From NCBI GenBank assembly GCA_947460875.1, contig CANHGR010000003.1, forward strand, positions 62,001-126,000: a stretch of DNA of 64,000 nt, written 5' to 3'. Within the stretch, counting starts at the first letter, position 1; the number at the start of each line of letters is the position of its first letter. A model generated the notes under the pieces. That model saw nothing but the letters and a program-made list of their open reading frames with translations, made no database searches and was not told the DNA's origin. This document shows positions 53,880-61,082 of this stretch, piece after piece. Position numbers and translations under genes: made by a program. This stretch comes from Sphingobacteriaceae bacterium. GTDB taxonomy: Bacteria; Bacteroidota; Bacteroidia; Sphingobacteriales; Sphingobacteriaceae.

Positions 53880-54022
53880 ACTTTTGGTCGAAGAGTTTAC
53901 ATTAGCCTCCGAGAATCGATAAAATTTTCGTTAACATCCTCCAAAAAATTTAGTTTGCGCTAGCTGTTAAACTATCTCATTTATTTATACTCCAACAATC
54001 AAAGACTAATTCAACATTGATA

Positions 54023-55546
54023 ATGACAAAGAGATTTTCTGTTTCCCTGATTATTGGTTTCGCACTGCTTATCCTCAATGGCGGTGCTATTGAATCGCCG
54101 GCAAGCAAAAGTCGGATGTTTGTTTCAAACTTCGAAAACGTTCTAGGAACATCCATGGAAATTAAGTTTCAGGCAATGAACGGAAAGGATGCTGAAATAG
54201 CTGAAAATAAAACGCTTGAAGAAATTGACAGACTTTCAAAAATTTTAAGTGCATACGACAAAGAAAGTGAATTCAGTATTTGGATAAAATCCAGAAACGC
54301 GCAAGTAAAGGTATCATCTGAACTTTTTGAGGTTTTAAGCCTGTTTGACAAGTGGAAACTACTTACAAATGGAGCACTAGATGCATCGGCAGAAACAGTG
54401 AGCAGAGTTTGGAAAGAAGCGGTACTAAAACAAGAGCTCCCTTCTGATCTTTCTTTAAGCTTGGCAGTTGAGAAAGTGAAGCAAAAGCATTGGAGCCTTG
54501 ACTACAATAATAAAACGGCTACCCATTTAGATGATTCGCCACTTATTCTAAATTCATTTGTAAAAAGTTATATCATCAATAAAGCAGCCGATGCAGCCCT
54601 AAAAGAACAGAACATCAGCGCAGTCGTCATTAATATTGGAGGAGATATTGTTGTGAAAGGAGCTTTAAACGAAACTGTGCAGATAAGCGATCCGAATGCA
54701 AGTGCCGAAAATGATATGCCTCTTTCGAAATTGATGATTCAAAACAGAGCGGTTGCAACTAGTGGAAATTATAAAAGAGGATTTCAAATTGGAAATACCT
54801 GGTACTCGCACATTGTAGATCCACGGACCGGCAAACCAGCAGGAAATATTATCAGCGCAACCGTCGTTGCTCCCAATGCCAGCGACGCCGGGGCCCTGGC
54901 CACAGCTTTAAATGTTTTGGATCCTGAAGAAGGTTTAAAGCTGGCGTCATCCATTCCTAACGTAGAAATGATGTTAATTACGAAAGATGGAAAACGATTG
55001 GAGACCAAAGGCTGGCAGGCCCTGGAACTTCCCTTAGATCAAGCTCGTTCATCTGCCCTTGAAACAATTAATTCTGCACAGCCAAAGTGGAATCCAAATT
55101 TTGAGCTAGCAATAAATTTAGAAATAAACACCATTAGCGGCTACAGAAGCAGGCGCCCTTTCGTAGCAGTGTGGGTAGAAGATGAAAACAAAAAGCTGGT
55201 TAGAAATATTGCCGTTTGGTTTGATAAAGATCGCTATTTAAATGAACTCAGATCTTGGGCACGCGTCACCAATGGCTTTGCAAATACTAATTTCAGTTCA
55301 ATCAGCAGTGCTACCAGATCTCCGGGAGCGTATAGCCTGAAATGGGATGGAAAAGATGATAACGGCTCTTTCGTTAAAGCCGGAAAGTACACAGTAGTAA
55401 TAGAAGCGGCCAGAGAACATGGCACGCATCAATTAATGAGCCAAGAGATTAATTTTAATGCGACGGCTGCACAGTTTAAATTGCCCGGTAATGTTGAAAT
55501 TGCATCTGTTGCGTTCGACTACAAAAAGGAATCATCTACAAAATAG
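54023..55546 (+). CDS. FAD:protein FMN transferase (ApbE) fused to a DUF2271 domain
   Basis: The 507-residue product has an N-terminal signal anchor (TKRFSVSLIIGFALLILNGG). Residues to about 340 form ApbE, which attaches FMN covalently to threonine in flavoproteins such as Rnf and Nqr subunits: the motifs are LGTSMEIKF, NLGGDI-like INIGGDIVV, ATSGNYKRGF, and HIVDPRTGKPA with the metal Asp/His. The C-terminal 150 residues are a DUF2271 beta domain (PFVAVWVEDENKKLVRNIAVWF, YSLKWDGKDDNGSFVKAGKYTVVIE). The fusion, with the PepSY-type gene 13 bp after it, is a repeated Bacteroidota arrangement for periplasmic flavin chemistry. The start is the ATG at 54023 after TTGATA. Confidence 0.88.
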   Translation: MTKRFSVSLIIGFALLILNGGAIESPASKSRMFVSNFENVLGTSMEIKFQAMNGKDAEIAENKTLEEIDRLSKILSAYDKESEFSIWIKSRNAQVKVSSELFEVLSLFDKWKLLTNGALDASAETVSRVWKEAVLKQELPSDLSLSLAVEKVKQKHWSLDYNNKTATHLDDSPLILNSFVKSYIINKAADAALKEQNISAVVINIGGDIVVKGALNETVQISDPNASAENDMPLSKLMIQNRAVATSGNYKRGFQIGNTWYSHIVDPRTGKPAGNIISATVVAPNASDAGALATALNVLDPEEGLKLASSIPNVEMMLITKDGKRLETKGWQALELPLDQARSSALETINSAQPKWNPNFELAINLEINTISGYRSRRPFVAVWVEDENKKLVRNIAVWFDKDRYLNELRSWARVTNGFANTNFSSISSATRSPGAYSLKWDGKDDNGSFVKAGKYTVVIEAAREHGTHQLMSQEINFNATAAQFKLPGNVEIASVAFDYKKESSTK

Positions 55547-55559
55547 CTAAACGTTTCAG

Positions 55560-56195
55560 ATGAGATCTCCAAAGAAAGTTGTAGCTAAAGAACGGCCAAA
55601 AACTGCATTTGAAAAAAGCACGGCATCAATTGCACGCTGGATTCATATTTACCTTTCGATGGTCAGCTTTGCAATTTTATTTTTCTTTGCAGTTACCGGA
55701 CTAACATTGAACCATGCCGACTGGTTTTCGGGCGCCGAGCAGGTAACTGAATTTACCGGCAAAGTCAAATCTGAATGGGTAAACCAGGCAGATACGAGCA
55801 AAATTAGCAAGCTTGAGCTTGTTGAGTATTTACGAATCACACATGGCATAAAGGGCTACGTCAGTGAATTTCGGATCGAAGAAAGGGAATGTGCTATTTC
55901 ATTCCGGGGGCCTGGTTACTCTTCTGATGCTTATATTGATAGAGATTCAGGACAATATGAATTATCCGAAACGCGATTAGGTTTGATGGCTATCATGAAC
56001 GATCTACACAAAGGCCGTGATACCGGTTCTGTTTGGTCTGTTGTTGTCGATGCGTCTGCCATTTTATTGGTTTTAGTTTCCCTTACGGGAATGATCATGA
56101 TTTTCTTCATTAAAAAGAAGAAGAAGAGTGGATTATTTATGGCACTTATAGGCTTAGCTATCGCGTTAGCACTTTACATCATCTTTGTCCCCTAA
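55560..56195 (+). CDS. PepSY-associated membrane protein
   Basis: The 211-residue product has a first helix ARWIHIYLSMVSFAILFFFAVTGLTLNHADWF, a periplasmic segment of about 95 residues including a GYVSEFRIEERECAISFRGPGYSSDAYIDRDSGQYEL PepSY-like part, a LMAIMNDLHKGRDTGSVWSVVVDASAILLVLVSLTGMIMIFF helix with conserved H-K-G-R, and a last hydrophobic helix. It resembles PepSY/TM reductases that pass electrons to periplasmic partners (ferric-chelate-type). Immediately after the ApbE-DUF2271 gene, so the pair probably works as one unit; the substrate is unknown. Confidence 0.85.
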   Translation: MRSPKKVVAKERPKTAFEKSTASIARWIHIYLSMVSFAILFFFAVTGLTLNHADWFSGAEQVTEFTGKVKSEWVNQADTSKISKLELVEYLRITHGIKGYVSEFRIEERECAISFRGPGYSSDAYIDRDSGQYELSETRLGLMAIMNDLHKGRDTGSVWSVVVDASAILLVLVSLTGMIMIFFIKKKKKSGLFMALIGLAIALALYIIFVP

Positions 56196-58314: not shown

Positions 58315-58659
58315 ATGATAAATAAAGCAAAAATATCTTCAGCCTTTATCTCGCTGCTACTTTTGCTGGCTTTTTCACTTACTATCGTTCCACTTGATCT
58401 TTTTCACGATCACCATACTCGTCCCACTCTTTGCAAAACCGCAGACAAAACGGGCTCATGCCAGCACAAACTACATCTCGCAGAAAAGCCTGCAAAATGT
58501 TGGATATGTGGAATTCATTACGACAAAGTCTTCACGAAACCTCTCGTACCCGAGAAATCAATAGCCAATAGCACTACAACCAGGTATTTGGAAAAAGGAG
58601 CAGAAAGCTATTACACCCGACTGATTTTTTCTTCATTACGCGGTCCACCCATAGGATAA
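58315..58659 (+). CDS. Small His/Cys-rich membrane-anchored protein
   Basis: The 114-residue product has one N-terminal hydrophobic segment (about residues 8-28), then a metal-ligand-rich region: His31, His33, His34, Cys40, Cys49, His51, His54, the Cys62-x-x-Cys65 pair and His68, and the C-terminus SLRGPPIG. The spacing suggests binding of zinc or another soft metal in the periplasm. It is 65 bp upstream of the ZnuD-like TonB receptor (from the preferred receptor start), so the two probably share a transcript. I know of no named family. Confidence 0.75.
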   Translation: MINKAKISSAFISLLLLLAFSLTIVPLDLFHDHHTRPTLCKTADKTGSCQHKLHLAEKPAKCWICGIHYDKVFTKPLVPEKSIANSTTTRYLEKGAESYYTRLIFSSLRGPPIG

Positions 58660-58724
58660 ATTTTTGATCTGTACCATCCAGCATACTAGCGAGGATGCAT
58701 TTATTCATTAAAAATTTATCAGAC

Positions 58725-61010
58725 ATGACATTTAAAGCAATTTACACCATTCTTATATGCCTGCTATTTTCAGTGGCGGCACAAGCAAAAGTTTTAGTTT
58801 ACAGTGGCAAAGTAATCGATTCCAGTACAAAATTGCCACTTCCAGGTGCTGCGGTTTCCATACCAGATCTTAGAATATCTGGAATTACAAATCAAAATGG
58901 CGAGTTCACGTTCAACAATACACCGGCTCAAGGCCGTTTCTTAATAGAAATAAAATATATCGGATACAAAACGCTTACTCAGCTGCTTGATTTTTCAAAT
59001 CCCGTGTCAGATTTTTTGCTTCAACCTAGTGTTATTGAGGCTGCAGAAGTAGTCGTTACGGGTTCGGCCTTTAGCTCAGATAGTAAAAAGAATAGTACGT
59101 CAGTTTCATCCGTTACAAAAGATCAATTGGTTAACAGGCCATCAACAAACTTGATAGATGCGATCTCAAAAATACCTGGCGTTTCCCAGGTGACTACCGG
59201 CGGCGGCATTTCAAAACCCGTAATCCGCGGATTGAGTTATAATCGAGTGCTCACGCTTGTCGACGGAACGAAACAAGAAGGTCAGCAGTGGGGTGATGAA
59301 CATGGCATTGAAGTAGATCAGTATGGTGCAGAGCGTATTGAAATTCTTCGGGGAGCCGCTAGTTTACTTTATGGTTCCGACGCCCTGGGGGGAGTAATTA
59401 ATGTCTTAGATGCCATCCCTCCAGCCGATGGCGATATCAGAGGAGAAGTTCTTTCCAACTTTGCTACTAACAACGGAATGAGCTCCAGTTCTGCCATGCT
59501 GCAAGGTAATTCAAGTGGACTTGTCTGGCGTGCTAGAAGCACCTACAAGAGTGCATTTGCTTACAATACACCAGAAGGACGCATCCCAAATACGGGATAT
59601 AAAGAAAACGCTTATAGCGGCGAAATCGGCCTAAATAAACAATGGGGATACAGTCATTTAAATTTATCCAGTTTTAGAACTGACCTTGGTCTTCCGGATT
59701 TTGAAAGAAACGGCGCCGGGCAGTTTAAAGATGAGAATGGCAATGTTTTCTCTTCTTCGCAGCTAAAAAGTCGAGAGATGTTGCTGCCCTATCAGAACGT
59801 CCGCCATTATAAGGCGGCACTCAATAGCAATATACTATTAGGCCCTACTCATCTACGTTCAACTTTTTCTTTCCAGAATAACCAACGACGAGAGTTTGAA
59901 GCAAGTACGGTCGATCCAACGCTATTTTTCGATTTAAAAACTTACAGCTTTGATCTTAAATACTATCTTCCGGAAGCTAAAGGATGGGAAAAAGTTATTG
60001 GAGCGTCTGGGGCAAGCCAAAGCAGCAGAAACAAGGCAGAAGAGCTGCTGATTCCTGATTATGACGCATTAAATTATGGGATTTTTACCTACGCAAAAAA
60101 GACTTGGAAAAAGTCCACTTTCAATCTTGGTGCGCGATTCGACTATCGGCAAATTCAAGGCATTGAGATGGAGGAGGAGGGATCACCAAAATTTTCTGAT
60201 TTCAAAAACGATTTCTCAAATGTTAGTGGCGCACTAGGCTTTACGCATGAGTTTACCGATAAACTTAATCTTAAATCAAACTTAGGAACAGCATTCAGAG
60301 CCCCGAACATTGCCGAGTTAAGTTCTGAGGGAGTGCATGAAGGCACATTTAGATATGAGTTAGGTAATGTAGCCCTCAAACCTGAATACAGCTACTATGG
60401 TGATGTTTCTTTAGAGTATAATACGGGTACTCTAAGCGCAGGATTAAATTTTTACTATAATTCAATAAATAACTATATCTACAACAGGCAAGATAATAAT
60501 GAGACCATCATTGCAGAAGGTGATTTATTACCTTTCTATCGGTATGTTCAAGACAACGCAACTCTCTATGGAACTGAGGCGACGCTAACCCTTCATCCGG
60601 TAGAGTTGATACACTTTGAAAATAGTTTCTCGTTCACCCGTGCTCAAAATAAAGCTACAGGAAACCCTCTTCCCTTTATTCCGGCTGCCACCCTAAGAAA
60701 TGAATTACGTATTGAACCTGGAGCAGAGAATAATTCAAGGCACAACTATTTTTCTATAGAGCTTCAAAATTCATTTAGACAAAATAGGATTGATAAATTT
60801 GAAACTCAAAATCCTGCTTACACCCTCGTAAACATAGCCGCCGGCACAAGCTTCAACTTAAATAAGCAAACAATACGGTTTAATCTTTCTGCTAACAATC
60901 TGTTTGATAAGGCTTATACCGAACACCTCAGTCGCTTAAAATACGTAGGGATTTTAAATCAAGGTAGGAATATATCATTTGGGATATATGTTCCGCTATC
61001 ATTGCAATGA
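58725..61010 (+). CDS. ZnuD-like TonB-dependent outer-membrane receptor
   Basis: The 761-residue receptor starts MTFKAIYTILICLLFSVAAQ (signal peptide), then a CarboxypepD_reg-like domain (VYSGKVIDSSTKLPLPGAAVSI) at residues 25-100. The plug follows (VVVTGSAFSSDSKKN, AISKIPGVSQVTTGGGISKPVIRGLSYNRVLTLVDG, QWGDEHGIEVDQYGAERIEILRGAASLLYGSDALGGVINV) and a beta-barrel with FRAPNIAELSSEGVHEGTFRYELGN and YVQDNATLYGTEA, patterns shared with the zinc receptor ZnuD. A longer start at 58695 adds ten residues. The upstream His/Cys protein supports a metal substrate. A terminator follows the stop. Confidence 0.88.
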   Translation: MTFKAIYTILICLLFSVAAQAKVLVYSGKVIDSSTKLPLPGAAVSIPDLRISGITNQNGEFTFNNTPAQGRFLIEIKYIGYKTLTQLLDFSNPVSDFLLQPSVIEAAEVVVTGSAFSSDSKKNSTSVSSVTKDQLVNRPSTNLIDAISKIPGVSQVTTGGGISKPVIRGLSYNRVLTLVDGTKQEGQQWGDEHGIEVDQYGAERIEILRGAASLLYGSDALGGVINVLDAIPPADGDIRGEVLSNFATNNGMSSSSAMLQGNSSGLVWRARSTYKSAFAYNTPEGRIPNTGYKENAYSGEIGLNKQWGYSHLNLSSFRTDLGLPDFERNGAGQFKDENGNVFSSSQLKSREMLLPYQNVRHYKAALNSNILLGPTHLRSTFSFQNNQRREFEASTVDPTLFFDLKTYSFDLKYYLPEAKGWEKVIGASGASQSSRNKAEELLIPDYDALNYGIFTYAKKTWKKSTFNLGARFDYRQIQGIEMEEEGSPKFSDFKNDFSNVSGALGFTHEFTDKLNLKSNLGTAFRAPNIAELSSEGVHEGTFRYELGNVALKPEYSYYGDVSLEYNTGTLSAGLNFYYNSINNYIYNRQDNNETIIAEGDLLPFYRYVQDNATLYGTEATLTLHPVELIHFENSFSFTRAQNKATGNPLPFIPAATLRNELRIEPGAENNSRHNYFSIELQNSFRQNRIDKFETQNPAYTLVNIAAGTSFNLNKQTIRFNLSANNLFDKAYTEHLSRLKYVGILNQGRNISFGIYVPLSLQ

Positions 61011-61045
61011 TACATACGGAAAATCCTCTTAGACCTTTTTAGATG

Positions 61046-61082
61046 AAAAGCAGTAATTCTCATACGGGAATTGCTGCTTTTT
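61046..61082 (+). terminator. Rho-independent terminator after the TonB receptor gene
   Basis: AAAAGCAGTAATTC (61046-61059) pairs with GAATTGCTGCTTTT (from 61068, with one T-G pair) around an 8-base loop and runs into T. Confidence 0.88.

Follow-up and report, generated by a model that had tools for sequence, protein, structure and literature searches.

The control of metal homeostasis by the stalling of nascent chains has, in the literature that we found, been shown for copper only. In Bordetella pertussis, CruR is encoded by a small exported first ORF ahead of a TonB receptor and carries a CxxC motif that lies 45 intervening residues from an RAPP motif; copper control needs this spacing and both motifs, and acts via Rho (PMC9426467). 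Translation of CruR arrests in vitro at RAPP, the P and A sites then being occupied by the two Pro codons; more generally, proteomes avoid RGPP and RAPP, both of which arrest ribosomes in a wide range of settings, and among the RAPP-like motifs tested RGPP arrests most strongly (PMC12992588). CutF of Rhodobacter capsulatus precedes a multicopper oxidase, which it switches on with copper, a sign opposite to that of CruR; its locus has a stem-loop over the start of the next gene. Its proline motif gave no strong stalling in a SecM-type test, which counts against the proposal made below (PMC9973294, 2023). The same work catalogued 5,334 CutF-like proteins, of which 19% belong to Bacteroidota, some with TonB-like neighbours, and proposed Ni/Co as ligand for a His-only subgroup. 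RxPP ORFs ahead of TonB genes have been reported from all Gram-negatives by a survey based on the motif only, in which the copper-related ones were absent from Bacteroidota (PMC12992588). Zinc goes unmentioned in the former study, as do zinc and ZnuA in the latter, and we found no description of a zinc arrest peptide in the open-access literature.

The locus described here lies in the window, i.e., the whole stretch of 64,000 nucleotides that was analysed, and consists of a 114-aa ORF followed by a TonB-dependent receptor gene (Table 1). An earlier note, made from the sequence alone, had regarded it as an undescribed two-gene metal-acquisition unit with a His/Cys-rich small protein as periplasmic metal acceptor or sensor. 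That the pair is undescribed needs qualification in view of the CutF-like proteins with TonB-like neighbours and of the R[GA]PP ORFs before TonB receptors cited above, whereas the zinc link of this leader type appears new. We propose, from sequence and by analogy, that the ORF is probably a regulatory upstream ORF (uORF) of the CruR/CutF kind, whose nascent product would sense a metal, probably Zn(II), and control the ZnuD-type receptor.

Table 1. Coordinates of the features of the locus, numbered from the first nucleotide of the window.
Feature	Position	Strand	Basis or remark
Upstream ORF of 114 aa, a putative CruR/CutF-like arrest peptide that senses metal	58315..58659	+	
N-terminal hydrophobic helix, ~residues 4-30; signal or membrane anchor	58324..58404	+	sequence; AF2 helix 4-30
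H31-D-H33-H34, predicted metal ligands	58405..58416	+	H31 and H33 near-invariant
C49-x-H51-x2-H54, accessory ligands	58459..58476	+	absent from some members
C62-x2-C65-x2-H68, predicted metal ligands	58498..58518	+	C62 and C65 invariant
L108-R109-G110-P111-P112, predicted arrest motif	58636..58650	+	motif biochemistry, PMC12992588
Candidate switch hairpin, 58655-58668 (over the uORF stop) with 58707-58720 (-18 to -5 from ATG 58725)	58655..58720	+	
ZnuD-type TonB-dependent receptor, 771 aa	58695..61010	+	likelier start ATG 58725
Intrinsic terminator hairpin, 17 bp with U-run, behind the receptor	~61045..61082	+	z = -6.6

Sequence features and conservation of the small ORF

The 114-aa ORF is a real gene, since a broader profile (E ≤ 0.001) detects homologues in no fewer than 113/395 genomes and 57/171 genera of Bacteroidota, both counts being lower bounds for which part of the candidates were scored. 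Among closer organisms, homologues occur in 40/60 relatives (sequence search with a loose cut-off) and in 83/151 genomes of the family (E ≤ 0.01), and some genomes hold the leader ORF in two or three copies. A related-locus search with closer sequences returned 12 named loci, mostly from Sphingobacteriaceae; the same search with a divergent alignment or with the single protein returned none. A TonB receptor is encoded within the first two downstream genes of 93/109 survey ORFs, in many Bacteroidota families, which bears out the two-gene unit of the earlier note. Of the 14 receptors of this genome only one is preceded by a leader ORF, which likewise counts in favour of the proposal.

All of the ligands listed in the earlier note (HxHH, C, CxHxxH and CxxCxxH) are present in the ORF, the lone Cys being C40, between the first and third groups, but conservation across the family is limited to H31, H33, C62 and C65, whereas some members do without C40 and CxHxxH, which are dispensable. 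HxH is found in 51/52 non-redundant homologues, a conservation equal to that of CxxC, and the two motifs together make a four-ligand His2Cys2 set. What the note, otherwise correct in its sequence facts, overlooked is the most conserved part of the protein, namely LRGPP within its C-terminal end SSLRGPPIG, two residues ahead of the stop codon. Its RGPP is the only R[GA]PP among the ORFs of at least 60 aa in the 64-kb window, and by analogy with CruR the P111 and P112 codons are predicted to occupy the P and A sites, respectively, of the stalled ribosome. The C-terminus carries [RK][GA]PP in 52/52 non-redundant homologues (RGPP in 40, RAPP in 9, KGPP in 2 and KAPP in 1), with 2-8 residues between motif and stop, and [RK][GAS]PP is found in 109/109 survey ORFs. 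The distance from CxxC to Arg is 42-46 residues, with a mode of 44 (33/52), and is spanned by a near-random chain: column entropy is 3.1-3.8 bits over the 29 residues ahead of the conserved Leu, versus 1.25 bits at this Leu, 0.32 at R, 0.71 at G/A and 0 at both prolines. Throughout the family, conservation reaches ≥90% at seven residues only (H31, H33, C62, C65, R109, P111 and P112). Since every synonymous codon occurs at the motif (four for either Pro, six for Arg), it is the peptide, and not the RNA, that is under selection. As the earlier profiles had held the motif, a control profile was made with the C-terminus cut off; it matched in 73/151 genomes, and 30/30 of the ORFs read end in RGPP, which rules out motif conservation as a search artefact.

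A hydrophobic N-terminal segment is present throughout the family. Outside this helix the AF2 model (pLDDT 69.5) has no confident fold, as was likewise reported for CruR. Neither the window protein nor its 23 aligned relatives match PF11162 (DUF2946) at E ≤ 1; a PF11162 scan of Bacteroidota weakly recovers family members, such as the G080 locus, that the family profile finds too, together with further RxPP ORFs ahead of ZnuD-like receptors, so that a remote kinship with DUF2946 is likely from these matches. Filing the family under DUF6769 (PF20558) was rejected as too narrow: this model distantly matches a few members (best 28.6 bits versus a cut-off of 27), was found in 2/198 genomes, neither above cut-off, and does not match the window protein.

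RNA structure around the gene junction

The receptor begins 35 nt after the ORF, or 65 nt after it at the likelier ATG. The duplex of the candidate switch hairpin has a free energy of -18.0 kcal/mol versus -6.8 (sd 2.2) for shuffled sequences, none of 3000 shuffles being as low, whereas the leader region as a whole folds only slightly better than its shuffles (z -1.6). Pairing of this type reaches p<0.05 in 13/78 relatives (binomial p ~1e-4) and falls below the median in 54/78. The pairing, strong at the window locus, is thus enriched in relatives but only modestly and not generally, which is a counterpoint to the proposal; no universal leader structure was found, and fold z-scores vary widely from locus to locus. 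Control by a CutF-like hairpin is plausible at the window locus, with Rho control as in CruR as a possible alternative. Between 57800 and 61500 nothing matched Rfam at E ≤ 1, and a known riboswitch was rejected on this ground. The terminator that the earlier note had seen behind the receptor is indeed there (Table 1); a simple consensus scan misses it.

The downstream receptor

The receptor consists of CarbopepD_reg_2, plug and barrel domains. Among NCBIfam models it ranks ZnuD highest (164.8 bits), followed by heme (157.6), siderophore (99.8), B12 (90.1) and copper (TIGR01778, 74.8) receptors, although it passes no cut-off, that of the ZnuD model NF038289, an exception-type model, being 950 bits; for other linked receptors the ZnuD and heme models alternate as best match. 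The solved fold closest to the AF2 model of the receptor (pLDDT 86) is ZnuD (Foldseek 1.2e-36; VIA Z 40.6), with OprC (copper, 38.2), ChuA (heme, 37.9) and BtuB (36) lower by VIA Z, the VIA lists serving as a second look only, in which absence carried no weight. The modelled fold is therefore also near to copper and heme receptors, a further counterpoint. Siderophore and B12 receptors (TIGR01783, TIGR01779, BtuB) are not the best match by these scores, both models being below ZnuD and heme and BtuB having the lower Z. When the PDB is searched with a profile of 37 linked receptors and a threshold of E ≤ 1e-60, ZnuD alone is retrieved (1.2e-90).

The zinc ligands of ZnuD are Asp99, His100, Glu340 and His499 (PMC4557270; chain residues 113, 114, 354 and 513 minus a 14-residue offset), and in the profile alignment receptor residues E202, H203, E400 and H548 align with them. 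Across the 37 linked receptors, column 202 is D/E in 37/37, H203 and E400 are invariant, and H548 is kept in 35/37. The combination [DE]HEH, found in 0/13 of the genome's other receptors, occurs in 80/98 survey receptors, with DHEN in 8/98. The only Cys of the receptor lies in its signal peptide, and conserved Met is absent. The ZnuD-like character claimed by the earlier note thus holds, and the alignment predicts a zinc site in a ZnuD-type receptor.

Genomic context of the leader family

The leader ORF heads ZnuA operons at four loci; two of these, followed further downstream, continue with an ABC-3 permease, and one of the two also with the ATPase. ZigA lies behind the leader at two loci, one copy scoring 608.2 bits versus a cut-off of 600, and an AztD-like protein is found at five loci (E 1.4e-18, under the curated cut-off). 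Copper-homeostasis families were absent from the neighbours scanned, which included singletons in part, and so were copper chaperones, Sco, PCuAC and multicopper oxidases. At six loci (L197, L199, L203, L204, L205 and L210) the leader precedes an ABC ATPase, together with a TonB receptor of the siderophore type and a pair of ABC-2/DUF3526 permeases, resembling in layout the Zur-regulated znuK/znuGHI of Caulobacter (PMC4176598). Exceptions at a few loci, which speak against the proposal, comprise this siderophore-type receptor with ABC-2 permeases, an HmuY/CobN neighbourhood and a P-type ATPase. L115:1506-1880 is a KGPP-ending outlier that adjoins HmuY-like and CobN-like genes and whose receptor has no ZnuD ligands; perhaps its ligand is different. 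At L120:1700-3655 (-), an E1-E2 (P-type) ATPase is encoded two genes downstream of the leader.

Unnamed His-rich or acidic lipoproteins occur at many loci, the largest cluster comprising 39 genes, and these travelling lipoproteins are candidate outer-membrane or periplasmic zinc carriers. The families 'NEEELITT...', 'EHFEAxG...' and DUF4625 accompany leader and receptor (L101-L119, L138 and survey loci), most having no Pfam family (e.g., L105:4309-4878 and L112:2181-2663); L108:4221-4556 (+) is a second leader within one locus, with an RAPP end, directly ahead of DUF4625 lipoproteins. Elsewhere in the window, an ApbE-DUF2271 fusion followed by a PepSY_TM-like protein (54017-56195) is likely a flavin-dependent periplasmic reduction unit. 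PepSY_TM genes stand behind CruR-controlled receptors in Bordetella, whereas in the window the PepSY_TM-like gene is apart from the receptor.

The single Fur-family protein of this genome scores 75.9 bits as Fur versus 29.7 as Zur, and a dedicated Zur is therefore taken to be absent; a Zur link is unlikely in this genome on these scores, and a Zur regulon was set aside on that basis.

Proposed mechanism and competing explanations

The invariant [RK][GA]PP, the fixed distance to CxxC, the unconserved chain between them and the first-gene position fit a nascent-chain arrest peptide acting in cis. What is observed is the motif with its spacing and conservation, the order of the genes, the zinc-site residues of the receptor and the zinc neighbours; stalling, release, zinc as ligand and the sign of regulation we infer, as follows. 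The ribosome would stall at R-G-P-P, two residues short of the stop, with CxxC, 44 residues from Arg109, just beyond the exit tunnel and HxH ~78 residues from Arg109, so that both would be free for metal. At low zinc, the stalled ribosome would keep the leader open and the receptor would be made: either the ribosome covers the 5' arm of the switch hairpin 58655/58720 (at P111/P112 it should reach ~58660, judging from its usual footprint, and hold this arm open), or it keeps Rho from acting, as happens with CruR. Zinc binding to the His/Cys set would make the nascent chain fold and pull free, upon which the ribosome would leave, receptor synthesis would be shut down by hairpin or Rho, and the short peptide would be discarded.

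The same architecture could serve copper, with copper as the ligand of the arrest peptide and as the cargo of the receptor. All characterized relatives respond to copper, CxxC is a classic Cu(I) motif, most Cys-containing CutF-like proteins adjoin copper genes (PMC9973294), and OprC is close in fold; but the receptor carries the ZnuD ligand signature, lacks conserved Met as well as any Cys outside the signal peptide, and scores lower with TIGR01778 than with ZnuD, the neighbours found are ZnuA, ZigA and AztD-like proteins, with no copper family among the genes scanned, and copper-related uORFs were reported missing from Bacteroidota (PMC12992588). We therefore regard copper as an unlikely ligand, if one to be taken seriously. 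Two His and two Cys also suit Zn(II), and the receptor ligands, the neighbouring genes, the lack of copper families among the neighbours scanned, the His2Cys2 set and the absence of Zur from this genome together favour zinc, without proving it.

Other readings differ on what the small protein does. That it is a stable periplasmic acceptor or chaperone, passing metal from or to the receptor, would account for its export signal, its His/Cys ligands and its adjacency to the receptor, but would leave the invariant RGPP, the fixed CxxC spacing and the near-random chain between them unexplained; AF2 gives no fold beyond the N-terminal helix, and the separate lipoproteins at many loci are better suited to such a role. 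We consider it improbable, so that of the earlier note's two suggestions the metal sensor is retained and the acceptor is not. At least as improbable is an arrest peptide with a monitoring role in Sec export or the biogenesis of the outer membrane, in the manner of SecM/ApdP, its His and Cys serving disulfide chemistry instead of metal: a signal sequence with RGPP does resemble the Sec/YidC monitors (PMC10987492, PMC12992588), yet HxH is conserved as much as CxxC, and zinc-uptake rather than sec genes lie downstream. An unrelated small secreted protein that neighbours the receptor by chance is already contradicted by the gene order kept across the survey and deserves practically no credence.

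Returning to the zinc-sensing uORF, we would tentatively entertain, as a possibility rather than an expectation, that in Bacteroidota without Zur nascent His2Cys2 zinc-arrest leaders govern ZnuD-type receptors, ZnuABC, ZigA and AztD-like genes phylum-wide, partly replacing Zur. If the family reads zinc, it would constitute a translation-level zinc switch for outer-membrane uptake in a phylum where zinc regulation is poorly known, and would provide functions for two unnamed sets of proteins, the leader peptides and the accompanying lipoproteins.

Comparison with known systems

The receptor shares its fold and four metal ligands with ZnuD of Neisseria (4RDR), but has an extra CarbopepD_reg_2 domain, and the His-rich clusters of loop 3 are not seen. 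As for the leader, CruR (DUF2946, PF11162) likewise is a small exported first ORF ahead of a TonB receptor, with CxxC and a C-terminal R[GA]PP, the second Cys being 46 residues from the Arg in CruR and 44 in the window ORF. Differently from CruR, the window ORF does not match DUF2946 and has an extra invariant HxH; its receptor is of the ZnuD and not the OprC/CrtA type and lies 65 nt away as opposed to 162 nt, no PepSY_TM gene follows, and the context is that of zinc. CutF resembles the window ORF, as proposed here, in being a nascent exported metal sensor acting in cis with a stem-loop over the start of the next gene; set against CutF-like features, the window ORF is 114 aa long and has a hydrophobic helix near its N-terminus, PP at 111-112 and a receptor 35-65 nt away. 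The RAPP/RGPP uORFs of PMC12992588 share with it the C-terminal RGPP and the position of a small secretory ORF ahead of a TonB gene. The kind, a metal-sensing arrest leader, is thus already known; what appears new is the receptor with its predicted zinc site, the setting among ZnuA/ZigA/AztD genes and the His2Cys2 set of the sensor.
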